The position numbers were made by a program, and so were the translations under genes. A stretch of 44,334 nt of DNA, taken from assembly GCA_025057395.1 (NCBI GenBank), contig JANWXU010000020.1:1-44334 (forward strand), read 5' to 3'. Position 1 is the stretch's first letter. The number at the start of each line of letters is the position of its first letter. The stretch is from Bacteroidia bacterium. Lineage in GTDB: Bacteria > Bacteroidota > Bacteroidia > J057 > JANWXU01. This document shows positions 78-24,122 of the stretch, piece by piece. The notes beneath the pieces are model-generated. The model worked only from the letters and a program-made list of their open reading frames with translations, ran no database searches and was not told the DNA's origin.

Positions 78-1649
78 TTGAAAAATACTAAATTATTTTC
101 TGACTACTCTTATTTCCTTCAGAGCCTAGAAAGTTTTCAACAAAAAAACTATGAAGAAGCAATCAAAAAATTACTATTGCTTGGAGATTCGTTTGCTCCT
201 ATGCATAAAGACCTACTTAAGGCAATTTTATACTTCGAATTACGAAATACTTGTCCTACCTACTATCAAGAATTGCAACTACTCAGTCACCACTATCCTA
301 GCTGTGCTGGCATTCAATATTTATGGGCTTTAGCAGCTAGCGAAATAGAGGCAATTAGTCCTGCAGAGCTAGAAGATTTATTTTCGCAAGTATTAACTAC
401 TGCACCTTTTCTGGCAGAAGGATATGCCAACTGGGCAGTATATTTATACGAAAGAGGAAAATATACCCCAGCTATCGAACTTCTCGATAAGGCAATTACA
501 TTAGACGAAAAACAAAACAGCTTTTTCTTTAATCGGGGTATGATTTATTTAGCGCAAAACAAGCCTACTTTAGCATGGAAAGATTTTCAACAAGCCCAGA
601 AGTTACAGTTTACTATTTCTAGAGAAGTACTTCAAAATTTAGCACATGCTCTCTTATCGCAAAAACAAATTCAAGAAGCCTACGAAGTAGCCAACTTTCT
701 TTTTACTACAGAAAACTCTCTTTCTCCAAGCGAATTGTTTTTGCGTAGCCAGTTATATTGCGCACTAGGCAAATGGCAAGAAGCTCTAAAGGACCTTTAT
801 GCTCTTGAAAAACTGTACCCCACCGAACCTAAGATTCTTTGGCAAATTGCGTGCGCCCTTCAACAATTAGAAAAACATTCTGAAGCTCTAGTATATTTTT
901 TACAATTAAAACCCTTTCAACAAGAATTTCCGCAATTGGAATTGTGCGTGGCTTCCTGTTACCTGGAAATAGGAAATTTGGAGCAAGCAGAGCAATGGTT
1001 ATCGCCTCCCTCTAATTGCCTAGAATACTGGCTACTAAAAGCAAGATTATATGAAAAACAGAATCTATATGAGCAGAGTCTAGAATTTTTAAAGCAAGCT
1101 CCATCTACTTTTCTAAAAGACCTGCGCCTTATTTTAACCCAAGCAAACTTATTGCTTAAACTACAGAGACAACAGGAAGCTTTTTCGCTTCTTTACCAAG
1201 CAATTAAAGAGCACCCGAAAAATCAGGAACTTCTGTTATTTTTAGCACAAGTAGAAATAGAAGAAGGAAAGCGAAAAGAAGCAAAAGACCACCTGCTGGA
1301 GCTATTAAAGCAAGATGAAAATAATCTCCAAGGCTTACACTTGATAGCTCTTCTTCTGGCTCAAGAGGGAAAATATGAGGCTGCTTACGAATACTATACT
1401 CGTATACTAAACCTTTCGCCCCAAGACCCCGAGGTATTAGCTAATCATGCGAATTTAGCTGAAATATTAGGTAACTACAACCAAGCTTTAGCAGACTTAG
1501 ACGCAGCTATAGCCCTTATCCCCTATGAAGCTGAATTTTATCTTCGCAAAGCAGAGATTTATAAAATTTTACATGACCCTAAAGCAGCAGAGGAGCACCT
1601 AAAAATGGCTACTATACTTCAGCAAGAGTCTAGAAACCCACAGAACTAG
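78..1649 (+). CDS. Tetratricopeptide-repeat (TPR) protein
   Basis: This 523-residue protein is almost entirely alpha-helical TPR solenoid. Typical repeat signatures (A..L..A, with G-Y or G-K..EA turns) recur from about residue 60 to the end. The clearest are near residues 110-170 (YERGKYTPAIELLDKAI) and at the C-terminus (GNYNQALADLDAAIALIP). I see no clear signal peptide or membrane helix, so it is probably a cytoplasmic or periplasm-facing scaffold for protein-protein contacts; its partner is unknown. The frame is open upstream, but TTG at 78 is the only reasonable start because the previous gene ends at 72. The first in-frame ATG falls about 40 residues in and would cut repeat sequence. 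The 3' end overlaps the convergent ispF gene by 20 bp. Confidence 0.85.
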   Translation: MKNTKLFSDYSYFLQSLESFQQKNYEEAIKKLLLLGDSFAPMHKDLLKAILYFELRNTCPTYYQELQLLSHHYPSCAGIQYLWALAASEIEAISPAELEDLFSQVLTTAPFLAEGYANWAVYLYERGKYTPAIELLDKAITLDEKQNSFFFNRGMIYLAQNKPTLAWKDFQQAQKLQFTISREVLQNLAHALLSQKQIQEAYEVANFLFTTENSLSPSELFLRSQLYCALGKWQEALKDLYALEKLYPTEPKILWQIACALQQLEKHSEALVYFLQLKPFQQEFPQLELCVASCYLEIGNLEQAEQWLSPPSNCLEYWLLKARLYEKQNLYEQSLEFLKQAPSTFLKDLRLILTQANLLLKLQRQQEAFSLLYQAIKEHPKNQELLLFLAQVEIEEGKRKEAKDHLLELLKQDENNLQGLHLIALLLAQEGKYEAAYEYYTRILNLSPQDPEVLANHANLAEILGNYNQALADLDAAIALIPYEAEFYLRKAEIYKILHDPKAAEEHLKMATILQQESRNPQN

Positions 1650-2124
1650 TATAGTAAACCAAAGCAACAGCAAAAGCAGCAATCCCCTCTCCTCGACCAA
1701 TAGCCCCTAACTTTTCATTGGTGGTAGCCTTAATAGAAATTTGTTCTACATCAACTCGCAAAGTATTCGCTAGCATCTCTTGCATTTGGGGAATATATGG
1801 ATTAATTTTAGGAAATTCCGCACAAACAGTAGCATCAATATTTCCTACGTAGTATCCCTTTGCGAGTAAAAGATTATTTACTCTCTCTAATAATCTAAGC
1901 GAAGAGATATCTTTATATTCCGCCTGGGTACTAGGAAAATGATAACCAATATCTCTTAAATTTGCAGAACCCAGGAGGGCGTCACAAATTGCGTGTACCA
2001 AAACATCGGCATCTGAGTGGCCATCTAATCCTTGGCTATATGGTATCAAAACCCCTCCTAACCATAGGGGGCGATTGGAAATAAAGGGATGAATATCATA
2101 TCCAAATCCAATTCGAAAATTCAT
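1630..2124 (-). CDS. ispF: 2-C-methyl-D-erythritol 2,4-cyclodiphosphate synthase
   Basis: IspF converts CDP-ME 2-phosphate to MEcPP and CMP in the non-mevalonate isoprenoid pathway, as a cytoplasmic homotrimer with a Zn site per subunit. The family motifs are all present: GYDIHPF at the N-terminus (Asp10 and His12 match the metal ligands), DGHSDADVLVHAICDALLG (His44 matches the third ligand), GYHFP, and the C-terminal KATTNEKLGAIGRGEGI. The length from the ATG at 2124 is 164 residues, normal for the family. A TTG two codons upstream (2130) is in frame, but the ATG gives the usual MNFRIGFGYD beginning. The start lies only 13 bp from the divergent TTG start of the DUF4271 gene, so there is no room for separate promoters between them. 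The 3' end overlaps the TPR gene. Confidence 0.96.
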   Translation of the reverse strand: MNFRIGFGYDIHPFISNRPLWLGGVLIPYSQGLDGHSDADVLVHAICDALLGSANLRDIGYHFPSTQAEYKDISSLRLLERVNNLLLAKGYYVGNIDATVCAEFPKINPYIPQMQEMLANTLRVDVEQISIKATTNEKLGAIGRGEGIAAFAVALVYYTSSVGF

Positions 2125-2137
2125 AAACAAAATACTA

Positions 2138-3685
2138 TTGAATCAATATCTACGCAATCTTACTAATTTTTTATCAATTCTATTTTTATTTTTCTTGTAT
2201 GGAGCGCAGGGGCCCTATTACTCTCTAGGAGCTCGAGTTTACACTTATACACCTAGCACTAAGTTACACCCTAGTGCCCTAACTCTCAAAATGCAAGTAG
2301 TATTACCCCTAAGTGGAGAATGGTACGATGAAAATCATCAAAAATGGCAAGTCCCTTTTTGGGTAGATGAAAAAAAAGAACTCACCCTATATAAAGACTT
2401 CTTCCTCCCTTTTTCCCCTAAAGATACCCTCTATTTATATTTCGAAGGTATTGCGTGGAGTAGTGAAATTTACCTCAATAATCGACTATTATTACTTTAC
2501 TATCAACCATTCGAAGAAACATTAATTACTCTTCCGCCTTCCCTGCTTAATAAACAATGGAACCAAATTAAAGTTAAATTATACTCTCAAGGAGTAAGCT
2601 ATGATTGGTATCCCCCAAAAATGCTAGGTATCCATAGAAATGTTTTTTTACTCCAAAAAAAAGAAGACTTTCTTTATTCTTTCTCCTTTCCTAAAGTTGT
2701 ACAGGCAGACACCACCCTTTTTTACGCTCCCTTTTCTTATACATTAGCCTATAACCTAGGCGAAAGTACCTTTCGCCTAGATATGACACATATAAAAAAT
2801 AAAGGCTTTAACACCATTTATTTTCCTTTCCAGCCCCCTCATCGCCTCCTACAAATTGTAGCGGAGTTAGGTCTTAACATAGCTGAAAGACCTGGAAAAA
2901 TAATTGCTTTCTACAATACTTACCCTACTCAAACAGGAAAATATTACCCCGGATGGTATAATGCTGGAATTGTAGACTCCTCACAAATTAACAAATACTA
3001 TCTTGTAGAAGAGTTCATAAAAGCTCCGCCTCAAAAACATTCCCACAACTTGTGGACTATTATCGGGCTTTTTTTACTTCTTGTAATTTGGAAACTCATA
3101 GATACTCCTAGTTTTAATCGCTTAGTAATGTGGCAAAAAGGTGCTACAGGAGCAAGCTCAGAAGCCTTCCCTTACCATCGATGGGTATTAAGTTACATAC
3201 TCATAGTTCGAATAGTAACAAGCAGCTGTTTACTGTATTTTTGCTACCAACTAGCTAACTTATTTGAATACCCCCTCTTTAATTATTTTCGGTCCCAAGA
3301 AGACACTTTCGCCAGTTCCACTACAATTTTTCTCGAAATATTTACGCTAATAAGTATCTACAGCCTACTAAAATATGTGCTTATAGCTTTAGCAGGAACT
3401 ATATATAGGTTCAGTGATCTTTGGGTAAAACTGCTAAACATTGAAGCTAGAGCCTCTTTTCCTACCAACCTTCTTTTAGTAGCTCTTGTTTTTATTGTTT
3501 GGATAGGATTACCATTTAGTCAAATAATTAGTACTTTACTATGCATAATACTCCTGGGAATTCATATACTTCGTAAGTATTACCTCATTTATAATGAATT
3601 CAATACTACATTAAAAATACCGGTTATAATAAATTTTTTGTATATTTGTATCGTGGAATGGGTGCCTTGGCTGCTTCTTTTATGA
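2138..3685 (+). CDS. GH2-like sugar-binding domain fused to DUF4271 membrane domain
   Basis: The protein has 515 residues. After an N-terminal hydrophobic segment (about 9-24), residues about 55-180 read like the jelly-roll N-domain of glycoside hydrolase family 2: LSGEW, LYFEGIAWSSEIYLNNRLL, and GIHRNVFLL. Residues about 210-260 resemble the start of a GH2 TIM barrel (RLDMTHIKNKGFNTIYFP, then ELGLNIAERPG). The catalytic part of the barrel is absent; the sequence passes instead into about six membrane helices (from about residue 305 to the end), which I assign to DUF4271, a family often found beside hemD in Bacteroidota. The TTG at 2138 is the only usable start: an in-frame stop lies at 2090-2092 and there is no ATG. 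Function is unknown; a membrane-anchored carbohydrate-binding or sensing role is inference. Confidence 0.72.
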   Translation: MNQYLRNLTNFLSILFLFFLYGAQGPYYSLGARVYTYTPSTKLHPSALTLKMQVVLPLSGEWYDENHQKWQVPFWVDEKKELTLYKDFFLPFSPKDTLYLYFEGIAWSSEIYLNNRLLLLYYQPFEETLITLPPSLLNKQWNQIKVKLYSQGVSYDWYPPKMLGIHRNVFLLQKKEDFLYSFSFPKVVQADTTLFYAPFSYTLAYNLGESTFRLDMTHIKNKGFNTIYFPFQPPHRLLQIVAELGLNIAERPGKIIAFYNTYPTQTGKYYPGWYNAGIVDSSQINKYYLVEEFIKAPPQKHSHNLWTIIGLFLLLVIWKLIDTPSFNRLVMWQKGATGASSEAFPYHRWVLSYILIVRIVTSSCLLYFCYQLANLFEYPLFNYFRSQEDTFASSTTIFLEIFTLISIYSLLKYVLIALAGTIYRFSDLWVKLLNIEARASFPTNLLLVALVFIVWIGLPFSQIISTLLCIILLGIHILRKYYLIYNEFNTTLKIPVIINFLYICIVEWVPWLLLL

Positions 3686-3762: not shown

Positions 3763-4515
3763 ATGATAAAGACCATTCTTGTATCGCACGCGCCTCCGAC
3801 AGACGAAAATTCGCCTTATCACACGTTGGCTAAGGAATGGAATCTTGAATTTGATTTTCACAACTTTGTTCATGTGGAGGGAATCTCTGCTTCAGAATTT
3901 CGCAAGCAAAACATAAACCCGCTTGACTATACAGCAATTATCTTTACCAGTAAGCAGGCAATAAATCATTTTTTTCGTATTTGTAAAGATTTACGCATAG
4001 AAATGCCTGCTGATACTAAATATTTTTGCATGTCTACCACCTTGGCTAATTACCTTCAAAAGTATATTGTAATCCGGAAAAGAAAACTCTACATAGGCGA
4101 GAAAACCCCTGCCGACATAATTGCTCTAATGAAAAAGCATAGTAAAGAAAAGTTTCTTTTCCCCTGTGGAGATAATACTTCCAATGAAATCACTAATGAA
4201 AATAGCGGCTGTGTTGTAAAGCCAGCCATTGTATTTCAAATGGTGCCTAATGATCTCTCTGAAGTCTTAAAAAAGCATTACGATATGGTCTGCCTTTTTT
4301 CTCCGCTAGGCATTGACGCCCTTCTTAAAAGTAATGCAAACTTAAAAGATTCTAATACGCTCATTGCCGTCTATGGACCTTCTACAGCAAAAGCAGCCCA
4401 AGAAAAGGGACTCCGTATCGATGTTTTGGCGCCCCAGCCTGATACACCGTCCCTTACAATGGCAATAGAAAATTTTCTAAAACAAAATTATAAAAAGGAA
4501 CAAGCTAACCTTTGA
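3763..4515 (+). CDS. hemD: Uroporphyrinogen-III synthase (HemD)
   Basis: HemD cyclises and inverts ring D of hydroxymethylbilane to make uroporphyrinogen III for haem and related tetrapyrroles. The 250-residue length and the two-lobe alternating pattern fit the family: TAIIFTSKQAINHFF in the first lobe, then YDMVCLFSPLGIDALLK and TLIAVYGPSTAKAAQEKGL in the second. The last motif is the usual 'G..TA.A....G' signature. HemD is poorly conserved, but the position after a DUF4271 gene is a recurrent Bacteroidota arrangement. It starts at ATG 3763, 77 bp after the DUF4271 stop. Its TGA (4513-4515) is followed after 6 nt, in the same frame, by the TTG start of the next gene. Confidence 0.9.
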   Translation: MIKTILVSHAPPTDENSPYHTLAKEWNLEFDFHNFVHVEGISASEFRKQNINPLDYTAIIFTSKQAINHFFRICKDLRIEMPADTKYFCMSTTLANYLQKYIVIRKRKLYIGEKTPADIIALMKKHSKEKFLFPCGDNTSNEITNENSGCVVKPAIVFQMVPNDLSEVLKKHYDMVCLFSPLGIDALLKSNANLKDSNTLIAVYGPSTAKAAQEKGLRIDVLAPQPDTPSLTMAIENFLKQNYKKEQANL

Positions 4516-4521
4516 AAAAAA

Positions 4522-5061
4522 TTGGCTGTTTTCTCTCAAGCACTAATATTCAAACGCGGGCGCGTCTGGCTCTTTCAATGTGCTCTCTGGTTAGGAATAT
4601 TCGCGGTTAATTTTTCACAAGCAACTCATTTTAGTCGTTTTGCTTGTCAAAATATAACGCCCCCCCTTCAGTGGTATTCCTGGCAAGATGCTTACTCAAC
4701 TGCGCTTGCTCAGAAAAAAATAATTCTTCTTCACGTTTATACGGATTGGTGTTTTTGGTGTAAAAAAATGGAAAAAGAAACATTCGAAAGCCCAATAATA
4801 ACCACTTTCCTTGACTCCTTCTTTGTAACTACTAAACTGAACCCCGAAGTGGCTAATAAATATGTATACAAAAATAAAGAGTATACTGCCAGGGAACTTT
4901 TCTTCAAACTGGCTGATGACCAAGCCGGTACTTATCCTACACTTATTATCATTATTCCCTCTGAAAATGCCTATTTTGATAAAGTTTATACTTTAGTTGG
5001 CTATTTTTCTGCAAAAGAGTTACTCGCATTATTAAAAGATATTAAGAAGCGCAATCCATAA
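4522..5061 (+). CDS. Exported thioredoxin-fold protein
   Basis: This is a 179-residue protein with a hydrophobic N-terminal segment (about 14-31) that looks like a signal peptide or anchor. A thioredoxin-like domain follows. The redox motif is WCFWC (Cys77 and Cys80) after KKIILLHVYTDW, followed by KKMEKETFESP, which is the Thioredoxin_7/DUF255-like form of the fold. A YPTLIII segment supplies the cis-Pro strand. It probably acts as a periplasmic thiol reductase or disulfide-handling protein; the substrate is unknown. The start is TTG 4522 because the in-frame hemD stop is only 6 nt upstream and no ATG precedes the active site at a sensible distance. It ends 5 nt from the convergent nadK stop. 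Confidence 0.85.
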   Translation: MAVFSQALIFKRGRVWLFQCALWLGIFAVNFSQATHFSRFACQNITPPLQWYSWQDAYSTALAQKKIILLHVYTDWCFWCKKMEKETFESPIITTFLDSFFVTTKLNPEVANKYVYKNKEYTARELFFKLADDQAGTYPTLIIIIPSENAYFDKVYTLVGYFSAKELLALLKDIKKRNP

Positions 5062-6158: not shown

Positions 6159-9100
6159 ATGCTTTTAAAGTTATCATGCCTTTGGATTTTGTGTTTTTTT
6201 CTACTCATAGAGAAGAATGCTTTTTCCCAACAAACACAACTTTTTACTCCTCTTACCGCCCAACAAACAGGAATTACTTTCCGAAATACCAGTGATGCAC
6301 AAGTTTACAAAATTAATCCTGCAATTTACACGGATTTCTTTAACGGGGGGGGCATCGCCGTAGGAGACATCAATAACGATAACCTACCCGATATCCTTTT
6401 CACTGGAAACACTACAGCGCCTCGCCTTTACCTTAACTTAGGCAATCTTCAGTTCCAAGATATTACTGAAAAAGCCAAAATTTCACTCACCGGCTGGGCC
6501 ACTAGTGCCGCAATAGTGGACCTCAACAACGATGGCTATTTAGATATTTTCATTTGCCGCTCAGGAGCTTCAGATAGTACTTTATTAAGCAACGTCGTTT
6601 TCATCAATAATCGTGATTTAACTTTTTCTGAAAAAACCCAGGAACTAAAATTAGACCAGGATAAGTCTTATACCCTCTATGCCGCCTTTCTAGACTACGA
6701 CAAAGACAGTGACCTAGATATTTACCTAGTAAATGCTCCAGACTTTGAAGCACTCAAAAAAAGCCCTCCCCATTTACCTCAAGCATTCAAGGCTGAAATT
6801 ATCCGATCTAAAATTAGTCCTCATGAAATGATGCAACTAGAAGGTCCCAGACTAAAAATTTCTTTCAAAGGAAGTGATAAGTTGCTACGCAACGACCTAG
6901 AAAAGGGCTTTGTCGATGTGACAGCGCTAGCCCAATTACCTCAAGAAACAGGCATGGGCCTACATGCCGCTATCATAGACGCCAACAACGATTCATGGCC
7001 CGATATTTACGTTTGCAACGACTTTATTGGCCCCGACTACTTATACATTAACCAAAAAGACGGCACCTTTGTGGATAGCGCTTTTTACTACTTCAAACAA
7101 ATGAGTTTTTCTTCAATGTGTGCTGATTTTGGAGACCTAGATAATGATGGCGAACCCGAAGCACTTATTACCGAAATGCTTCCCTATGAACCATTTCGCG
7201 AAAAAGCTTTTATCTCCTATTACCCCATTTACTACTACGAAAAAATCTTTACCCCTATAAAAAAGCGATTGCCCCAATACTTAAAAAACTCTTTATTTCG
7301 AAAAGTGGGCGGTAAATGGCTAGCAGAAGTAGCCCATTACACAAATCTAGCTCGCACAGATTGGAGCTGGAGCGCCTTAATTGCCGATTTTAATAACGAT
7401 GCGTGGCAAGATATTTTTATTAGCACGGGTATGGCAGTTGAATTTAATTATCTAGATTTTTATACCTACCAAAATAACCCTAATCAAAAATTTCAACGGT
7501 ACCAAAAACAAGAAGATTTAATTTATAGTTTACCCCGCAATCCTCAGCCCAATTTTTTATTTCTAAACCAAAAAAATTTTCAGTTTGAAAATGCTGGAAA
7601 CCAAAATGGGCTCGCTTGGAAAGGAATAACTCCCGCCGCTACTTACGCTGACCTGGATAGAGACGGAGATCTTGACCTAATCTATAATAACCAAGATACT
7701 ACAGCTTTTATTCTTCGAAATAATGTAAGAGAAAATTCTCAAAACCCTTTTTTTACTATCACTTTTGAAAAAAAAGATTTTATCCAGTCTTTAGGTGCCA
7801 AAATTTACTTAAAAGCTAAAGATTTATGGCAATTTCGAGAAGTAAGTATTTCCAAGGGCTACCAAGCTAGCACTGAAAACATAGCCCACTTCGGATTACC
7901 TCCCCAAACCACAAATATTGACTCCTTACTTATTCTTTTTGCAGATAATAAATTTTTGCTTTTTACAAATTTGAAATCTAACCAGATCTTCAAAGCAAAG
8001 TATGCGGAAGCCCAGCTTTGGCAAAATAAGTCCCTCTACGCCACCATTTTCAAAAAAGAACCCTTTTTCAAAAAAGCTTCTTTAATCCATGAGTATAAAC
8101 ATCAAGAAAACCCATTTATCGACTTTGAAACAGAACGTCTTTTATTAAAAAAATATTCCTGCCAAGGCCCTGGTATTAGCGTAGAAGATATTAACCAAGA
8201 CGGATTAGAAGATATTTTTCTAGGAAATGGAGCGGGTCATGCTCCTATGATTTGGTTACAACAACCAAATGGTAACTTCATACCCAGCCTGCAACCTGGG
8301 TGGCAAAATGAATTTTACCAAGATGCTGTGGGTAGTATTTTTGTAGATTATGACAATGATAACGATAAAGATATCCTCCTTTTTTTTGCTGGTAATGAAA
8401 CTCCAGTGGAAAAACCAAATAATTATCGAATTAGGCTCTACAAAAATCTGGGCAAGGGCCAATATTTAGAAGATACAACCTCCCTCCCTATACAATTACC
8501 TACTACTTGCATTGCTGCTTCTGATTACAATAAAGACGGCTTCATAGATTTATTCATTGGCGCTAGCGTTTTACCTAGCAATTGGCCTCTAGCTAAAGGT
8601 TCTTTACTACTCAAAAATAATAAAGGAACTTTTGAGCCCCAAACTCAATTGTCCTGGCTCGATACGTTAGGCATCATTACTAATGCTTTATTTTCCGACA
8701 TTGATAACGACGGGTGGCAAGACTTAATAATAGTAGGAGAAGGAACGCCTATTTACTTTATAAAAAATGAGCAAGGTACCCTAAAACCTATAAGAACAAA
8801 CTTAGAACCTATTCATGGCTTTTGGCAAAGTATCACTGCAGCTGATTTTGATAATGATGGAGATATTGACTATGTAGTAGGTAACGTTGGTAATAACCAC
8901 CGCTATAGTGCTTCTCTCCAGAAACCCATCACCATTGTAGTGCAAGACCTGGATAAAAATGGCAAAATAGACCCTCTCACTTTTTTCTATGATAGAGGGC
9001 AACAAGTATCTCTTTTTAATCGAGACCTTATCTGTGAACAAGTTCCAGCATTTCGTAACCAGTTTCTTACTTATGCAGACTTTGGCAAGGCTAAACTTCA

Positions 9101-9728
9101 AGATTTCTTCAAAGTATTTCCTTACCAGCCCCAAAAAGTTATTACTATTCACACCCTTAGCTCTATCTATCTAGAAAATTTGGGTAATTTTCAATTTCGT
9201 TCCACCCCATTACCCTTCCAGGCACAATTATTTCCTATCAAGGGCATGCTAGCCTGTGATATAAACCAGGATGCATGGCTGGATCTTTTAATCATAGGAA
9301 ACGAATACAATACCCATCCTAATTTTGGGCGTCAAGACGCAGGCAATAGCCTAGTGCTTTTAGGCCAAGGCAATGGTAACTTTACTGCTCAAGAAAATAC
9401 AGGTTTCTGGGTATCCTCTGATGCACGTGCGCTTACCAAAATAAAAATAAAAAATCTTCCTTGCTTTTTAGCTTCAGCTAACCAAGATTCACTTTTTTTC
9501 TTTACCCTCCATAAACCTCAAAATTACTTCTACTTTGAATTTATTCCCAATGAAGCCTACGCCCATATCTATTTCAAAGGATCTACTCAACCCCGAAAAC
9601 TTGAAAACATTCCCGTCACCTCTTACTTATCTTATTCGTCATCCAGCTCTTTTTTGAACAAGAACTTAATTGAAAAAATTATTACCTTTAACTCTACTCA
9701 TCAGCATGTTCGAACAATTAAACCTTAA
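6159..9728 (+). CDS. Exported VCBS/FG-GAP repeat protein with ASPIC/UnbV domain (copy 1)
   Basis: The 1189-residue protein begins with a signal peptide (about 1-23, ending AFSQ) without a lipobox. Two beta-propeller-like halves of FG-GAP/VCBS repeats follow, each repeat marked by a calcium-loop pattern of the DxNxDGxxD type. Examples in the first half are DINNDNLPDI, DLNNDGYLDIF, DANNDSWPDIY and DLDRDGDLDLI. In the middle (about 530-620) is an ASPIC/UnbV domain, seen as the GYQAS...HFGLPP signature. The second half has DINQDGLEDIF, DYNKDGFIDLF, DIDNDGWQDLI and DFDNDGDIDYVVGN. This CRTAC1-like architecture is common in Cytophagales. No C-terminal type IX signal is evident. It lies 15 bp upstream of its paralogue, so the two are probably co-transcribed. 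A run of eight G at 6345-6352 sits early in the gene. The ligand is unknown. Confidence 0.88.
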   Translation: MLLKLSCLWILCFFLLIEKNAFSQQTQLFTPLTAQQTGITFRNTSDAQVYKINPAIYTDFFNGGGIAVGDINNDNLPDILFTGNTTAPRLYLNLGNLQFQDITEKAKISLTGWATSAAIVDLNNDGYLDIFICRSGASDSTLLSNVVFINNRDLTFSEKTQELKLDQDKSYTLYAAFLDYDKDSDLDIYLVNAPDFEALKKSPPHLPQAFKAEIIRSKISPHEMMQLEGPRLKISFKGSDKLLRNDLEKGFVDVTALAQLPQETGMGLHAAIIDANNDSWPDIYVCNDFIGPDYLYINQKDGTFVDSAFYYFKQMSFSSMCADFGDLDNDGEPEALITEMLPYEPFREKAFISYYPIYYYEKIFTPIKKRLPQYLKNSLFRKVGGKWLAEVAHYTNLARTDWSWSALIADFNNDAWQDIFISTGMAVEFNYLDFYTYQNNPNQKFQRYQKQEDLIYSLPRNPQPNFLFLNQKNFQFENAGNQNGLAWKGITPAATYADLDRDGDLDLIYNNQDTTAFILRNNVRENSQNPFFTITFEKKDFIQSLGAKIYLKAKDLWQFREVSISKGYQASTENIAHFGLPPQTTNIDSLLILFADNKFLLFTNLKSNQIFKAKYAEAQLWQNKSLYATIFKKEPFFKKASLIHEYKHQENPFIDFETERLLLKKYSCQGPGISVEDINQDGLEDIFLGNGAGHAPMIWLQQPNGNFIPSLQPGWQNEFYQDAVGSIFVDYDNDNDKDILLFFAGNETPVEKPNNYRIRLYKNLGKGQYLEDTTSLPIQLPTTCIAASDYNKDGFIDLFIGASVLPSNWPLAKGSLLLKNNKGTFEPQTQLSWLDTLGIITNALFSDIDNDGWQDLIIVGEGTPIYFIKNEQGTLKPIRTNLEPIHGFWQSITAADFDNDGDIDYVVGNVGNNHRYSASLQKPITIVVQDLDKNGKIDPLTFFYDRGQQVSLFNRDLICEQVPAFRNQFLTYADFGKAKLQDFFKVFPYQPQKVITIHTLSSIYLENLGNFQFRSTPLPFQAQLFPIKGMLACDINQDAWLDLLIIGNEYNTHPNFGRQDAGNSLVLLGQGNGNFTAQENTGFWVSSDARALTKIKIKNLPCFLASANQDSLFFFTLHKPQNYFYFEFIPNEAYAHIYFKGSTQPRKLENIPVTSYLSYSSSSSFLNKNLIEKIITFNSTHQHVRTIKP

Positions 9729-9743: not shown

Positions 9744-12700
9744 ATGAATAAAACTTTTTTTTGCATCTGGACTGCCATAAAACTCACTTTGCTTTTTAAG
9801 CCTTTAGCAGCCCAACCCCTTTTTTATCCTCTACCACCATCTACTACTAACATCGACTTTACCAATACCGTCGATGATAAGCCCGAAATTAATGGGCTTA
9901 ACTACCCCTACTATTACAATGGTGGTGGAGTTGCTGTAGCCGACTTAAATAATGACGGACTAAGTGATATTATCTTAACCGGTAATGGAGTACCTTCTAA
10001 AATCTATCTTAATTTGGGCAAACTTAAATTTAGGGATATTACCCAAGAGTCAGGTTTTGTTTTTCCAGGATGGGCAACCGGCGTAACCGTCGGTGATGTG
10101 AATAACGATGGTTATCTTGATATCTTTGTTTGCCGATCGGTTTCTGACAAAGCAGAGCTTTTGCAAAACCTTCTCTTTATTAACAATGGAAACCTAACTT
10201 TTACCGAAAAGTCTTCGGCTTGGGGGCTTATAGAAAAAGAACTTACTATCCATGCAGCTTTTTTAGACTACGACAATGATGGTGATTTAGACCTCTATAC
10301 TCTTAACCACCCTAATATTATTAACTTTAAGGGCAGCCCTACTATGGCGGTTGATAGTAAAATGCGGGAAGAAGTAGCAAGACTTAAAATTAATCCTAAC
10401 GACTACATTCAACTTACACCTGGCTCCACACTAATAGAAACTGGAACTGATAAATTATACGAAAACATAGGCGGTAAGTTTGTAGAAGTTACCCACAAGG
10501 CCGGTCTACCAGCCGAGCATGCCATGGGTTTAAGCGTTACTGCCGCAGATATTAACCAAGATGGATATGTAGATCTTTTCATTGGAAATGATTTTATTGG
10601 TCAAGATTTTTTGTACATTAATCAAAGAAACGGCACTTTTGTAGATAGTACTATCTACTACTTTCCTCATTTGTGTTACTACTCCATGGGTAACGATATA
10701 GCTGATATTAATAATGACGCTTTGCCAGATCTTATTGTTCTAGATATGCTCCCTGAGGATAATTTCCGAGAAAAGTCTGCTATTCAATATATGCCCTTAC
10801 ACTTCTATGAAACTGTATTTACTTCCCAAAATAGAAGAATTCCTCAGTTCATAAAAAATCATTTATATATCAATACTGGAAAGCCCCCTTTTCTAGAAAT
10901 TGGGCAATTTGCAGGTATAGCTCGTACCGATTGGAGCTGGGCTCCCCTATTCGCTGATTTTGATAACGACGGTTACAAAGATTTATTTATCTCTAACGGA
11001 CTTAAAAAAGACCTTAACTACTTCGATGTTTTACAAGGCGAAGAAATATATAAAGTGGGTGCTAAATTTAGCTTTAACCCCCAAGAAATGTTACGCAAAT
11101 TACCTGACCTTAGGTTACCTAATTATATTTTTCAAAATAATAGGCAATACCGCTTTCTCCCTAAAATGCAAGAATGGGGAATGCTAGGGGCTATAAATAC
11201 CAGCGGTGCCGCTTACGCCGATTTAGATAATGATGGCGACCTAGAAATTATTACTAATAATATGGATACCGTTGCTATCATTTATAAAAATCAATCTCAA
11301 GAAATATCGAAAAATCATTTTTTACGTATTTTACCCTTTTGGAAACCGCAAGGGGCTATCGCCTTTCATACCAAAGTTTGGCTTTACACGCCTGAAGGCA
11401 TTCAATATCAGGAGCTAAAAACTACAGCCGGCTATCAATCTTGCTCGGAACCTATCCTACACTTTGGCTTGGGGAAAATCAATAAAGTAGATTCTATTAT
11501 CGTAGTTTTTCCTAACCAACAAAAGCTCGTGCTTTTGAATCCTGCCTTAGATAAGCTTCATACCCTTTTTGCCACACAAGCTCTGCTTAAGTTTACTACT
11601 ACTTTGCCAATTCAATCTCCGCTTCTTTTCGAAGACCAAACTAAAAAGCGAGAGCTAAATTGGAGCCACACAGAAAATAAATATTTAGACTTTGAATATG
11701 AGCGCCTTCTATTACAAAAAAAATCACATGTACCTCCTCCACTTGCAATAGGAGACCTTAATGGAGATGAAATGGAAGACTGTATAATAGGTAGTAGTGC
11801 CATGATGACTCCTACTCTCTGGCTCCAAACCAAAGAAGGAAAATTCCAAAAATTACAGAATTGTCCTTGGGAAAAAGAAAAACACGCTGACATTACAGCT
11901 ATATTACTATGGGATTTAGATAATGATTCTGATTTGGATATTTACTTTGTAATGGGGGGAAATGAAGTACATAAAGATACTACTCTTCTGCAAGATTGGA
12001 TCTACTACAACGACGGCAAAGGCAACTTTAGTAAATACCCTTATCCATTACCTGCTAATAACAGCAATTGCATTGCTGCCGCTGATTACGATAAAGATGG
12101 AGATTTAGATATTTTCCTAGGAGGGGGAAGTGTACCTGGCAGCTACCCGCTAGCTGCCGGTAGCTACCTAATAAAAAATGAAAAGGGAATTTTACAAGAC
12201 GCCACAGAAACAGAGGCTCCAGAACTAAAAATTCCTGGAATTATAAATGCTGCCCTTTGGACCGACTTTGATAATGATAGCTGGCAAGATTTAATTCTTT
12301 GCCCAGAATGGCTTCCACTTCAATTCTACAAAAACGAAAAAGGTAAATTGAAGCGTATCGAAATAGAGGGCTTAGAATACACTTCGGGATTATGGCAAAG
12401 TATTGTAGGTGGCGATTTTGATAACGATGGCGATACTGACTACATAGTTGGCAATTGGGGCTTAAATAATCGTCTAAGCAACTTCGTAAGTCCCACCTCA
12501 CCCTTAATTTGCATAGTAACAGATATAGATAAAAATGGCAGCCTCGATCCTCTAGTTTTCTATTTTCAAAAAGGACAGTATTACCCTGTTACAGCCCGCA
12601 AAGAACTTTTTGAACAGGTACCCTCCTTACGCAATCAATTCATTACTTTTAGTGCTTATGGTAAAGCTACTCAAAATGATATTTATAAAAATGTTTCTCT

Positions 12701-13307
12701 TGAGGGTTCTCTGCGCTATGAAATACATACACTTACTTCCTGTTATCTAGAAAACCTAAGTAAGGGAAAATTTCGACTCATACCCTTGCCACTTCAATTA
12801 CAGTGGAGCCCCTTGCGCGGTCTTCTGGTAGAAGATTTCGATCAAGATGGCAACCTAGATATTCTAGCCACTGGTAATTCACAAGAACCTCATCCTAATT
12901 TAGGTTATGAATATGGTTCTCAAGGATGGTTTCTAAAAGGAAAGGGCGATGGCACTTTTGAAGTACTTCAACATACTGGCTTTCGTATAGAAGGAAGCGG
13001 TAGAGCACTCGCTTTAAGCATTTCTGCCAAAGAAAATCAACCTCTTATTTGGGCAACCCAAAATCAAAATCAAGCAAAAGTTTTTGGTCTTTTACCTCCT
13101 TTTACTCCCAAAAGTATTTGGCAAGCCCCCCACTTACTACATTCTTGCTGGCTAGAGCTTAGCGGCGGCAAAAAAAGAAAAATTGAATTTTACTATGGCT
13201 CGGGCTATCACTCCCAAAGTACTAGAAAAGTATTTTTTAATATCCACTCTAAAAACTTACTACAATACGACCATTCAAGCCAAACTTTCCAGGCACTAAA
13301 ACCTTAA
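9744..13307 (+). CDS. Exported VCBS/FG-GAP repeat protein with ASPIC/UnbV domain (copy 2)
   Basis: This 1187-residue paralogue of the preceding gene matches it in length and colinear architecture: signal peptide (ending PLAAQ), FG-GAP/VCBS repeats, central ASPIC/UnbV domain (GYQSC...LHFGLG), and a second set of repeats. Shared landmarks include the ARTDWSW segment, the FREKS/FREKA segment, and the late NWGLNNR versus NVGNNHR loop. Its calcium loops are more canonical than in copy 1 (DFDNDGYKDLF, DLDNDGDLEII, DYDKDGDLDIFLGGG, DFDNDGDTDYIVGN). The two genes clearly arose by tandem duplication and have diverged substantially. It is probably surface-exposed or periplasmic, with Ca2+-dependent ligand or protein binding. 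Nothing next to it (no SusC/SusD pair) identifies the ligand. Confidence 0.88.
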   Translation: MNKTFFCIWTAIKLTLLFKPLAAQPLFYPLPPSTTNIDFTNTVDDKPEINGLNYPYYYNGGGVAVADLNNDGLSDIILTGNGVPSKIYLNLGKLKFRDITQESGFVFPGWATGVTVGDVNNDGYLDIFVCRSVSDKAELLQNLLFINNGNLTFTEKSSAWGLIEKELTIHAAFLDYDNDGDLDLYTLNHPNIINFKGSPTMAVDSKMREEVARLKINPNDYIQLTPGSTLIETGTDKLYENIGGKFVEVTHKAGLPAEHAMGLSVTAADINQDGYVDLFIGNDFIGQDFLYINQRNGTFVDSTIYYFPHLCYYSMGNDIADINNDALPDLIVLDMLPEDNFREKSAIQYMPLHFYETVFTSQNRRIPQFIKNHLYINTGKPPFLEIGQFAGIARTDWSWAPLFADFDNDGYKDLFISNGLKKDLNYFDVLQGEEIYKVGAKFSFNPQEMLRKLPDLRLPNYIFQNNRQYRFLPKMQEWGMLGAINTSGAAYADLDNDGDLEIITNNMDTVAIIYKNQSQEISKNHFLRILPFWKPQGAIAFHTKVWLYTPEGIQYQELKTTAGYQSCSEPILHFGLGKINKVDSIIVVFPNQQKLVLLNPALDKLHTLFATQALLKFTTTLPIQSPLLFEDQTKKRELNWSHTENKYLDFEYERLLLQKKSHVPPPLAIGDLNGDEMEDCIIGSSAMMTPTLWLQTKEGKFQKLQNCPWEKEKHADITAILLWDLDNDSDLDIYFVMGGNEVHKDTTLLQDWIYYNDGKGNFSKYPYPLPANNSNCIAAADYDKDGDLDIFLGGGSVPGSYPLAAGSYLIKNEKGILQDATETEAPELKIPGIINAALWTDFDNDSWQDLILCPEWLPLQFYKNEKGKLKRIEIEGLEYTSGLWQSIVGGDFDNDGDTDYIVGNWGLNNRLSNFVSPTSPLICIVTDIDKNGSLDPLVFYFQKGQYYPVTARKELFEQVPSLRNQFITFSAYGKATQNDIYKNVSLEGSLRYEIHTLTSCYLENLSKGKFRLIPLPLQLQWSPLRGLLVEDFDQDGNLDILATGNSQEPHPNLGYEYGSQGWFLKGKGDGTFEVLQHTGFRIEGSGRALALSISAKENQPLIWATQNQNQAKVFGLLPPFTPKSIWQAPHLLHSCWLELSGGKKRKIEFYYGSGYHSQSTRKVFFNIHSKNLLQYDHSSQTFQALKP

Positions 13308-19405: not shown

Positions 19406-19526
19406 TCATGTGTTTATTTTGCTAGCTAGATAATTTTTTATATACTTTTTAGAAATATTGTGTTAATTTAAATTAATTTTGAGATAAGTATTGCTTTTTT
19501 TTCACAAAAGTCCATGTTTTAAGAGT

Positions 19527-22500
19527 ATGACTTACCTGCAGAAGTATATCGTCTTTATACTTGCTTGGTTCTTGCTTTGCAAAGCAATAATAGCACAACA
19601 GGTGCCGCAAGAATATGTCTTGCACTACCTTACCTTCAATGACCCTATACAAGATGGAGTTCGAATGAACTTAAATCTACAGCCTATCAGCGGTCCTCAC
19701 CGCTGGGTAATTGGAAACGCTTATACAGACCCTAATGAAACTATAGAAACACCAGACCAAACCCGGGTAGTTCAAGGAAATATTTTTGGTGCTCCTAGAA
19801 GTGGATACCTATATATAACCAATCCATCAAACCCTTTATTCCCTAATGCTGCATATAATAAAAGATCTACTTCTAACGTAGTAAGCAAATTAAATGCCCA
19901 GACAATTTGTACTCTAGGATTTCAAATTGTAGAAATTTCTTTTTTCTGGATGGCAGGTGGAGATGGAGTAAATGCCTATGGTGAAATTTTATGGTCTGCT
20001 CGCGGCTCTGATCCTACACCAGTTACTATAGATGGACAGCCTCTGCGTCTTTTCGGTAGTAGAGATAAATGGCAATATACTACAGTTTCGGTACCGGGTA
20101 CAGCTAACACCAGCGATGTAGAATATTACATTCGATGGGTTAATCGCGCTAACAACGCAGGAGAGCCTATGGATCTATCAATTGGAATTGATGATTTTAC
20201 TGTAAAAGGCACTATAACAAAACTACCCAGACTTTTTACTGAAATTCGTCCGGCTCTACCAGGTAACCAAGTTTGCCAGGGCACTACTATTCAAGTTTGT
20301 TTGCGACATGAATGGCAACTGTGCCCGGGTTTTTATCGAATTCGCCTTTCAGAACCTAATGGCGAATTTACTCCCACCTCTCCCCAAATAGGACCGCTGT
20401 TTCATAGTATTGATACTACTCCTGGGCCTTTTAATATGTATTATCCTTCTTGGCCCTGCTTCACCGTACCTATTCCCCAATTTGCTTCTCCAGATATTTG
20501 CTATAAAATTCGCTTTGAACGATTTACTCAATATCCAATAGGAGGGGTAGGTAATTTTGCAGTTGACGATCTTACAGGTTATCCTTTTCTTCCGCCTGCT
20601 GTAGATGGCAGACCTGCTGATGCCCCCTGCTTTGAAGTAATTAATTGTCAACCACGATATATTATCGATACTCAACCAGAAGGACCTCCCTTCAGTCCAC
20701 GAATACCTGACGGTGCTCCCCCCACTCTTATTTCTCGAGAAAGGAATTGTGATATTGTTTGTGTAAATTCTCCATTAACTATAACTTTTGGTTCTCGTAT
20801 TCAAGTACGTAATCCTAATACTGGCCAGTGGCAAAACGCGCCTTCCTACTTATATGACCCTGGTAATGAGTATATCGGACAACTATTGCGGCTAAATATA
20901 AGTGGAAGAGATACCACGATTACCGTAGTGCGACAAATTGGACAGCCCTTAAGAGAGCGCGCAGGACTCGCACAATACCCTACTCGAAACAGCCCGTGGG
21001 GAAGCATTAGCGACTTAGTGCCGGATGTACCTGACGGCTGCAATTATTACTTGCGGGTAATCTCTACCAATCCCCCTTCGATAGACTCAAGATATTGGGG
21101 GCCCTTCTGCATCCGACATTGCGATATTGAAACAAATAACTTACGTCCTGTAAGCATTTGTTATTCTTGCAATGTGAAAGCTGAAGATGAATTTCCCACA
21201 GACCCTGAGCGCTCTTTGGTACCCTATGATTGGTATGTATGTACCCGCTGTAATAATGCGCCAGGTAAGTGTGAAGGGTGCAATGAGGAGCAAAAAAAGA
21301 TTTACCTGAATGCTTGTAAGGATACTATTCCTACTGGCTTACCTCACCGCTTAGAGCACGGAGCTTTGATACCTGTCTTAGTAAAAATCAATCGCTGGCC
21401 ATGGCCGCAAAACGCTCCAGTAAGATATTCTCCTGGTGATATTTTCGAAATTGAATTGTGGCAACCTGTTTCGCCTCCCCCTAGCGTTCCGCCTCCACTA
21501 AGACCTAGTCACGAGTATCCCACAATAGCCAAAGTAGATATCGACCAAACGTACCAAGAAATTCAGAACGCAGAAAATAGGCAAGTAGCTTTTATGCAAA
21601 TGGTTTCTAATACAAGGTGGCAACCCTCTAACCCTCCCCCCTCACAAGAAGCTATTATCTGGCTAAAAGTAATAGGGAGCGATAGAGGGGGGCCCCATCC
21701 TGCTAAAGCACCCAATCCTCCCCCTTACCCAGGGCCTTATTTCTTCCGTATTATTTCTAAAAAGAATCCACCCAATACCGCCCCCGATACTATTCCGGGA
21801 TTTCCGCATTCGCGTATTGGAAATGTTAATTGCAAACCCCAAGATGCATTTGGGCAGTTTACTACTCTTACTATTGCCGAACCGGCCCAAGCTGCCCCTA
21901 TGCTTATATTAAGCGATAACGTACCCGAATGTTACAATAAAAACGATCCTAATCCTAACGAAGGATATATAGGTATGGATATAGTACCCCCAGTGCAAAG
22001 TAGCTGCTATGAATGGTACATTAAGCGTCCTGGGGAAACAGAATTTAGCTACTTTTTTACTACCTGTCCTCCCAACAATAGTTCCTTGGGAGTAATAGTA
22101 ACTCAGGGAGAAACTTATGAGTTTAAAGTCCGGGAGCGTGCCGGCGGAGTAAACCAAGGGTGCTTTGGACCATTTTCGGAACCTCTCATAGTGGTAGCAG
22201 GGCAAAATCAACGCATTAAATTCAAACTCAATGAGCCCCCTCCTTTTTGCATCGGGGATGAAGTAGTGTATTCTGTGGAGTTTGATGCTACTACCCCTAC
22301 CCAGTACTCCTTTGCCGAGGCGCGTTTTGAGCCACCTACAGCAGGTAGAGTTACCTATACTGCTAATAATGAAATCCGCATCTTATGGCAAGATACGGGT
22401 ATGTGCCGCCTAAAAGTGCTGGGTATAGTAAAACCCTCACCCCTATGTGAGCTTAGAGATTCAGCATATTTTGTAGTACGTTCCTATGCAGATCCTCTTC

Positions 22501-24122
22501 CTATTTTTGGAGGAAAATCTCCTAAAATTCCGATTTGCTCTAATGAACCTTTTTACCTATTCAACATTCCTCCTCTTGCCCAAATGAACCGAAGAAAAGA
22601 CTTTTACGGCAAGCTCTTTGATTACGGTATGTGGGTTACGGATAAAGACTTCAAAGATGAATTAGGTCCTAATGACAGAATCAATACCTTTTGGCCCTCC
22701 CAAACAGCTATTGAAATTAAAGAAAATGTGAATAGTGACTTAGCCACGGAACAAGATTCTATCTTCCGCACTCGCGATGGCAGAGATGTTTGGAGGGGGG
22801 CTTTAGTAATTCCCGCAAGACAAATACCACCTGGCCAAGTTCGATATCTATTTTTAAGAACACGTAACGAAAATGGATGTGTAGCCCGCGACCCTATTAC
22901 CTTGCTAACCCCACCCGATTTCATCATAGACGTAGGAAAAGATACCCTAATTTGCCCAGGGCAAGTATTCCAACTCAATGCCAAAACCTTATTTACTACC
23001 CCATTTCCAGAGGGAGCCGAAAACTGGAAAACGGAAATTATGTATGAATGGGAAGAGCACCCGGGTGTAACTTACCTTGACCCAAGAAATATTCCTAATC
23101 CTAAAGTACGTCTGAGCAGACCCGTGAATACCCTAAAAGTAAATGTCACGGTAACCTATAAGCCTGATGAAAATTCAGCGCAGAGCCTCACTTGTGATAC
23201 TAAGTCTCGAGTACTAATAGTTCAAGTATATCAGCCTGCAGAAATGCAAGATAGAGTTTGCCTTTTAGATAGTACCTATTTCCTGCCACTACCCATTCGT
23301 GAAAATATGCCTGGAAAGTGGGAAAGTGGTTTTTATCAAAAGCCGCCTGACCAACTTCCTGTGCCTATCGAAGAAGAAAATAAAGTCCGTCTTGGCGCAA
23401 TAGACCAAGTAGGCGGAGTTAGAATAGGTAGAGCGGGCACCCCACAAGGATATAAAACAGTAAGCTTTGTTTATCGGCATGAGTCAAGTGGTTGCACTGA
23501 TACCCTACATTTAACTGTAACTGGTTCTCCAGAAATTGATTTCAAAGCTCTTAAGCCTAATTATCTTAAGTTTTTTCCCAGAGATTCAGCTATTAATTCT
23601 TTCTTAGATAAATCTTTAGGAACAGACCCTAACAGAAATCGGTGGCGAGTTTGGATTAATAAGCCCCACCTACCTAAAGCCGACACAAGTGTCTTTTTGA
23701 ACCAAAAGGATCTGGAAAATTACTTTTTTGAGTATAATAAAATTTTCCCAGATACAGTTTCTTATTTTGTAGAACTTACTGTCATTTCGCATGAAGGATG
23801 CGCAGCTAAAGATACACTCGAAGTACTAGTAGTAAACGTCTATAGCCTTATCGTTTACAATGTATTCACCCCCAATGGAGATGGTGTAAATGATCGTTTT
23901 GTAGTAGAAAATGAGGGGGTAAAAGAATATCGGCTTTCTATTTTTGATAGGTGGGGAAATCAAGTATTTTTTACTCAAAACCCCATGGAGCATTGGGATG
24001 GTACTCGCAATAATGATGGTGTTACTAAAATGCAGGAGGGAGCTTATTTTTATTACCTTGAAGGTAGATTTCATAATGATAGACAATTTCAACGTTCTGG
24101 AAATGTTACCTTACTAAGGTAA
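19527..24122 (+). CDS. Giant exported protein with type IX (CHU_C) sorting domain, copy 1
   Basis: The protein has 1531 residues from ATG 19527, which opens directly into a signal peptide ending IIAQ. A TTG 12 codons upstream would add a non-signal-like extension. Residues about 30-230 look like a MAM/jelly-roll module ending GIDDFTVKG. A long Cys-rich central region follows, including three CxxC motifs at 545-548, 572-575 and 582-585. The final 90 residues are the gliding-motility-associated C-terminal domain: VYNVFTPNGDGVNDRF, then SIFDRWGNQVF, WDGT and EGAYFYYLEG. This marks a type-B substrate of the type IX secretion system, exported across the outer membrane. It is colinear with the next gene. 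Adhesin or surface-scaffold function is inference. Confidence 0.85.
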   Translation: MTYLQKYIVFILAWFLLCKAIIAQQVPQEYVLHYLTFNDPIQDGVRMNLNLQPISGPHRWVIGNAYTDPNETIETPDQTRVVQGNIFGAPRSGYLYITNPSNPLFPNAAYNKRSTSNVVSKLNAQTICTLGFQIVEISFFWMAGGDGVNAYGEILWSARGSDPTPVTIDGQPLRLFGSRDKWQYTTVSVPGTANTSDVEYYIRWVNRANNAGEPMDLSIGIDDFTVKGTITKLPRLFTEIRPALPGNQVCQGTTIQVCLRHEWQLCPGFYRIRLSEPNGEFTPTSPQIGPLFHSIDTTPGPFNMYYPSWPCFTVPIPQFASPDICYKIRFERFTQYPIGGVGNFAVDDLTGYPFLPPAVDGRPADAPCFEVINCQPRYIIDTQPEGPPFSPRIPDGAPPTLISRERNCDIVCVNSPLTITFGSRIQVRNPNTGQWQNAPSYLYDPGNEYIGQLLRLNISGRDTTITVVRQIGQPLRERAGLAQYPTRNSPWGSISDLVPDVPDGCNYYLRVISTNPPSIDSRYWGPFCIRHCDIETNNLRPVSICYSCNVKAEDEFPTDPERSLVPYDWYVCTRCNNAPGKCEGCNEEQKKIYLNACKDTIPTGLPHRLEHGALIPVLVKINRWPWPQNAPVRYSPGDIFEIELWQPVSPPPSVPPPLRPSHEYPTIAKVDIDQTYQEIQNAENRQVAFMQMVSNTRWQPSNPPPSQEAIIWLKVIGSDRGGPHPAKAPNPPPYPGPYFFRIISKKNPPNTAPDTIPGFPHSRIGNVNCKPQDAFGQFTTLTIAEPAQAAPMLILSDNVPECYNKNDPNPNEGYIGMDIVPPVQSSCYEWYIKRPGETEFSYFFTTCPPNNSSLGVIVTQGETYEFKVRERAGGVNQGCFGPFSEPLIVVAGQNQRIKFKLNEPPPFCIGDEVVYSVEFDATTPTQYSFAEARFEPPTAGRVTYTANNEIRILWQDTGMCRLKVLGIVKPSPLCELRDSAYFVVRSYADPLPIFGGKSPKIPICSNEPFYLFNIPPLAQMNRRKDFYGKLFDYGMWVTDKDFKDELGPNDRINTFWPSQTAIEIKENVNSDLATEQDSIFRTRDGRDVWRGALVIPARQIPPGQVRYLFLRTRNENGCVARDPITLLTPPDFIIDVGKDTLICPGQVFQLNAKTLFTTPFPEGAENWKTEIMYEWEEHPGVTYLDPRNIPNPKVRLSRPVNTLKVNVTVTYKPDENSAQSLTCDTKSRVLIVQVYQPAEMQDRVCLLDSTYFLPLPIRENMPGKWESGFYQKPPDQLPVPIEEENKVRLGAIDQVGGVRIGRAGTPQGYKTVSFVYRHESSGCTDTLHLTVTGSPEIDFKALKPNYLKFFPRDSAINSFLDKSLGTDPNRNRWRVWINKPHLPKADTSVFLNQKDLENYFFEYNKIFPDTVSYFVELTVISHEGCAAKDTLEVLVVNVYSLIVYNVFTPNGDGVNDRFVVENEGVKEYRLSIFDRWGNQVFFTQNPMEHWDGTRNNDGVTKMQEGAYFYYLEGRFHNDRQFQRSGNVTLLR

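Follow-up and report, generated by a model that had tools for sequence, protein, structure and literature searches.

A truncated glycoside hydrolase family 2 domain fused to a DUF4271 membrane protein, and its constant HEM4-fold partner, in Bacteroidia

What would the front part of a glycoside hydrolase do on a membrane protein that is encoded beside a gene taken for hemD? The question is raised by an uninterrupted, TTG-started open reading frame of 515 amino acids, located at positions 2138-3685 of the forward strand of the window, which is the whole stretch of 44,334 nucleotides from a Bacteroidia bacterium that was analyzed here. An earlier, sequence-only reading had described it as the jelly-roll and the first part of the TIM barrel of a glycoside hydrolase family 2 (GH2) enzyme, continuing into a DUF4271 membrane protein, and the motifs quoted in that description (LSGEW, LNNRLLL, GIHRNV and KNKGFNTIYFP) are all present in the frame. 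Homologues support a layout of four parts, all on the forward strand. The protein begins with a hydrophobic segment that could act as signal or anchor (residues 1-29; 2138-2224), predicted as a helix from residue 2 to residue 29 and delimited with the family alignment A1. It is followed by a jelly-roll similar to the GH2 sugar-binding domain (residues 52-175; 2291-2662), by what is left of the beginning of a GH2 TIM barrel (residues about 186-265; 2693-2932), namely its first strands and helices, and by a DUF4271 membrane domain (residues 305-515; 3050-3682) with about six transmembrane helices and an LYxCxxExxP motif at its end. In many homologues of A1 the hydrophobic segment is closed by an A-x-A-Q-like motif, which we take to be typical of Bacteroidota signal peptides. 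This signal-like N-terminus and, weakly, the distribution of charges point to a periplasmic N-terminal domain: Lys and Arg outnumber Asp and Glu in the loops predicted as cytosolic, and not in the loop predicted as periplasmic, an excess that is small except in the last loop and that weakly favours this topology.

The searches made with the single sequence (NCBIfam, Pfam and phmmer against the PDB) are too weak or empty. Pfam places DUF4271 at residues 359-514 (E=1.4e-4) with a score of 22.2, below the curated cut-off of 29.7, and Glyco_hydro_2_N2 at residues 63-150 (E=0.005), also below its curated cut-off, and phmmer against the PDB gives no matches for the window protein alone. Family profiles were therefore required. 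Alignment A1 has 21 rows, the window protein and its homologues at 19-30% identity to it, and is collinear through all parts of the fusion. Member by member, Pfam finds DUF4271 in 17/21 homologues (best E=2.1e-12), GH2_N2 in 5/21 (best E=1.2e-7) and GH2_N in one. Alignment of A1 by hhalign to five GH2 proteins of the same genome set has a probability of 98.5% (E=3e-15), and alignment to DUF4271 one of 99.8% (E=3.6e-29), the latter being not fully independent because the DUF4271 alignment includes some fusion rows. When the A1 profile is run against PDB sequences at E<=0.01, all 25 matches are GH2 enzymes. A profile search of the whole class resolves the two halves: positions about 70-165 of A1 match frames of GH2 size (about 600-1170 amino acids), positions 177-248 and 190-276 match two GH2-type frames (L123 and L124), and positions about 285-520 match short DUF4271 frames.

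The predicted structures agree with this assignment. The AlphaFold model built on A1 has a mean pLDDT of 77, with the jelly-roll mostly at about 85-95 and lower confidence in the linker and in the loops of the membrane part. Foldseek returns 302 PDB matches for it at E<=0.001 (best 1.2e-9), and the best 50 of these 302 are all enzymes of the GH2 family. The DUF4271 domain modelled alone from 31 sequences (pLDDT 84, pTM 0.79) finds neither a fold match (best E=8.5) nor a sequence match in the PDB. Because family profiles, hhalign, PDB matches and Foldseek agree, the GH2 match goes far beyond what chance would give, and an assembly artefact can be ruled out as the origin of the fusion. The GH2 ancestry of the N-terminal half, as well as its continuation into about six DUF4271 helices, both claimed in the sequence-only reading, thus stand on firm ground. 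That reading had made its GH2 claim depend on a match above threshold and on a jelly-roll fold; although the single sequence by itself literally stays below the curated cut-offs, this outcome is overturned by the family evidence, and the fold predicted is the one expected.

The fusion shares with the GH2 family (PF22666/PF02837, PF00703, PF02836) both the jelly-roll and the beginning of the TIM barrel, arranged in identical order, but it differs from it in lacking the Ig-like domain, in having the barrel cut before the acid/base and the nucleophile, and in carrying a membrane domain. In the hmmsearch alignments it matches residues 356-425 of L123 (E=2.9e-10), while in the LacZ-like protein L124 it matches the jelly-roll, skips the whole Ig-like domain and resumes at residues 347-431; the acid/base NE motif of L124 is at 448 and its nucleophile motif at 515, both past the end of the match. 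The Ig-like second GH2 domain is absent from the fusion, since the profile alignment jumps over it and the model has no strands at residues about 175-190, and a complete TIM barrel with acid/base and nucleophile Glu is absent as well, the chain running into transmembrane helices instead. As the match ends before both catalytic Glu residues and the Ig-like domain is gone, GH2 hydrolase function is excluded by anatomy: judged by its sequence, the fusion protein cannot be a GH2 hydrolase. The absence of the catalytic part had already been recognized in the sequence-only reading, and that of the Ig-like domain now adds to it. In the jelly-roll, W62 and P73 are invariant and G104 and N114 nearly so, residues that look structural. 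Two relatives deserve mention here. L123 (positions 380-3121, genome G009) is a GH2-type protein of 914 amino acids that matches the fusion in both of its GH2 parts; within its barrel, Pfam covers the start alone, and the [GHF]NE motif was not found, which makes it a further candidate for an inactive GH2. A homologue of the fusion in genome G001 (L022, 1492-3288) has an insert of about 80-90 amino acids in the TIM-barrel remnant.

The architecture had been proposed as new. It is apparently undescribed, since a narrow literature search found DUF4271 mentioned only twice and in passing, both times in animal papers, and gave nothing useful on GH2-membrane fusions or on a link between hemD and type IX secretion; it is not, however, unique to the window, a notion to be rejected because homologues matching both halves occur in 20 other genomes among 60 related ones searched. 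Of the order's 21 other genomes, 19 are among these, and the twentieth (G059) comes from another family in the class; the class-wide profile search adds two further genomes of that same family (G098 and G131). The fusion is a lineage-wide variant and not a unique oddity. Within the class, 225/247 genomes have a DUF4271 protein as such, in most cases encoded by a frame of 220-370 amino acids, and A1 detects divergent copies of the fusion in five more genomes beyond these 225, all from the same order. The fusion shares with DUF4271 (PF14093) the C-terminal membrane domain, the LYxCxxExxP signature and an adjoining HEM4 gene, and in contrast to most members of about 220-370 amino acids, with their short N-terminal extensions, the fusion branch adds a GH2 remnant of about 250 amino acids, in accordance with the earlier remark that DUF4271 proteins are usually shorter. 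For the membrane domain, a quick tree, rough because of long branches, splits 23 fusions from 40 non-fusions by one branch (SH-aLRT 98), which is consistent with a single origin of the fusion. The N-terminal domain could also be older than the fusion branch and lost in other lineages, as suggested by a non-fusion DUF4271 protein (L156, 1911-3152, genome G255) whose long N-terminus is weakly like the jelly-roll in a search of 11 sequences (E=1.6e-5) and has no match in a Pfam search; its gene is followed by HEM4, porP and gldK.

The constant partner of DUF4271 is the HEM4-fold protein annotated as 'hemD', encoded in the window at 3763-4515 of the forward strand and characterized by Pfam (HEM4, E=7.2e-26), a tree and a residue table. 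In the non-fusion families sampled, HEM4 lies directly after DUF4271 on the same strand in 40/40 cases, and in the fusion loci, the window's included, it follows co-oriented in 22/23 (the exception being L087), with HemC in between in seven. DUF4271 is also absent from all eight genomes that lack HEM4, seven of which belong to one genus and one of which is incomplete, so that this co-loss represents one or two events. The adjacency may reflect co-expression only. The partner matches human uroporphyrinogen-III synthase (UROS, 1jr2; E=1e-5) and has in common with HemD/UROS (PF02602) the HEM4 fold and most of the pocket residues checked, but it is set apart from it by belonging to a separate clade with a long stem and by being retained without HemB and HemC. 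In a tree of 80 HEM4 sequences, the 60 DUF4271-linked copies are set off from all others by a single branch (support 100/99, with the bootstrap not fully settled), the stem of this clade is very long (2.46 changes per column), and the haem-operon HEM4 sits elsewhere in the tree. In family f46 (L083, 5380-6711; L128; L129), the HEM4 partner lies within a frame of 403-444 amino acids, and in L083 Pfam finds no domain outside HEM4.

The protein family of this neighbour suggests a role in the haem pathway, in which DUF4271 would tether HemD (and HemC) to the membrane or channel their intermediate, and the position of HemC between the fusion and HEM4 in seven loci of the order speaks for it. So do the residues of the pocket. 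The equivalents of S63, Y168, S197 and T228 of human UROS are mostly retained in the linked HEM4 (in the window's copy, Phe takes the place of the Tyr168 equivalent), which makes an enzymatic role possible, and all five residues checked, the T103 equivalent among them, are kept in 6/6 linked HEM4s from HemC-positive genomes that have no other HEM4. The T103 equivalent is retained in just 3/14 linked HEM4s from genomes without HemB and HemC, a comparison of small samples of related sequences. Loss of the UROS active site was considered as a clean marker of lost function and rejected, given that most pocket residues stay and only Thr103 relaxes. The linked clade is, to judge from these residues, probably still UROS in some lineages; the T103 pattern, together with the occurrence of the pair without HemB and HemC, argues that in other lineages it is kept for something else. 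Against a haem-pathway partnership stands the distribution of the pathway itself: HemC is found in 162/247 and HemB in 156/247 genomes of the class, and 69/247 (about 28%), many of them near-complete, have DUF4271 and HEM4 while lacking HemB as well as HemC. The window's genome (G000, 96% complete) is one of these, and HemB, HemC and HemE were not found in it. Moreover, many HemC-positive genomes possess an additional HEM4 that is separate in the tree and frequently shares a frame with HemC or adjoins it. As the pair is retained in genomes without the early haem steps, it probably does a different job, and a haem-pathway partner seems unlikely. The description of the fusion as lying next to haem biosynthesis is not supported, because its neighbour belongs to a DUF4271-specific HEM4 clade. 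The haem context misleads; of greater interest is the relation of DUF4271 to its HEM4 partner.

The gene order further downstream raises the alternative that the pair is an accessory of type IX secretion and gliding, aiding the assembly or regulation of PorP-GldKLMN. In the loci of the order, porP follows HEM4 in 18/20, with gldK next in 15 of those 18, whereas gldK follows in 7/40 in the other families, and the window's genome encodes GldL and five PorP homologues. However, porP-gldK does not adjoin the window's own pair, three near-complete genomes that retain the pair (G052, G092 and G156) have no GldL match, and GldL is present without DUF4271 in G080, G116 and genus g60, the last of which also lacks HEM4. 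An obligatory dependence on type IX secretion was rejected, because the pair can persist in genomes that lack GldL and be missing from genomes that have it: porP and gldK are the usual downstream neighbours in the order, but they are neither required by the pair nor sufficient for it, and since GldL and the pair occur independently, the link is positional. An accessory function of this kind is accordingly improbable. The envelope glycan sensor proposed in the sequence-only reading, in which the jelly-roll would bind sugar and signal through DUF4271, looks rather more doubtful. In 7TMR-DISM receptors an extracytoplasmic jelly-roll is followed by membrane helices, and the GH2 jelly-roll is among the galactose-binding-like folds, both of which speak for the idea; the comparison with PF07695/PF07696 is nevertheless one of way of working only, as the fusion lacks an output domain, has a GH2-derived jelly-roll and a different membrane domain, and shows no Pfam match to 7TMR-DISM domains at E<=1. 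In GH2 enzymes, most of the sugar site is supplied by the barrel, which is truncated here, and the conserved jelly-roll residues would serve structure. That the fusion is accidental, a neutral relic with a functionless N-terminal domain, would fit the low identity to the window protein within the family, but it is very improbable in view of the open and collinear homologues across the order, only one of the 22 matches having an internal stop, near its start, and of the conserved motifs found throughout both GH2 parts in A1.

The reading that we favour, which has about an even chance, is that of a non-haem envelope module, in which a cytosolic HEM4-fold partner would sit on a membrane protein whose periplasmic domain is not an enzyme. 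The GH2 remnant would lie on the periplasmic side, where it would bind, without catalysis, a glycan or protein ligand of the envelope and would position or gate the membrane module, while the cytosolic HEM4 protein would dock on the cytoplasmic loops of DUF4271. The pair would thus work in the cell envelope and not in haem synthesis, with the same HEM4 probably doubling as uroporphyrinogen-III synthase in some lineages. The steps on which this proposal depends (periplasmic side, HEM4 docking, envelope ligand and non-haem function) could equally well prove right or wrong. Somewhat short of even is the wider proposal of an unrecognised module common to the Bacteroidota, in which the UROS fold serves as cytosolic partner of DUF4271 and is retained by haem auxotrophs for a function unrelated to tetrapyrroles, one order having gained a periplasmic receptor domain that derives from the first third of a GH2 enzyme.

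The retention of 'hemD' without the early pathway in haem-auxotrophic Bacteroidota such as P. gingivalis is a known oddity (PMC13227078), to which the envelope module gives a testable reading. In P. gingivalis, PG_0202 (HEM4) adjoins rnpA, yidD and tatD (PG_0201 to PG_0199) (PMC10101095), and the same order is seen in two non-fusion loci (L130 and L169), which read DUF4271-HEM4-rnpA-yidD-tatD-tyrS. These gene surroundings suggest that PG_0202 probably belongs to the DUF4271-linked clade; PG0202 was also on a 2007 list of Bacteroidetes-specific proteins (PMC1887533). Should the pair serve some other function, the label 'hemD' would be misleading for many genes annotated so in Bacteroidota, and DUF4271, a widespread membrane protein of unknown function, would acquire a partner.

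The remaining neighbours complete the picture of the locus. Next in line after HEM4 is a gene for a DsbH/thioredoxin-like protein (4522-5061, forward strand), which occupies the usual place of porP-gldK and is not claimed as part of the module, and on the other side the divergent ispF (1630-2130, reverse strand), which is context only, adjoins the fusion in five relatives too. Further along the window, two tandem proteins of about 1190 amino acids (6159-9728 and 9744-13307) each combine FG-GAP repeats with an ASPIC/UnbV domain, and two class A penicillin-binding proteins are encoded in tandem at 33865-38446. Between them, proteins of 1543 and 1474 amino acids (19491-24122 and 24449-28873) end in CHU_C type IX secretion signals, and this set of two directly follows a response regulator/histidine kinase pair.
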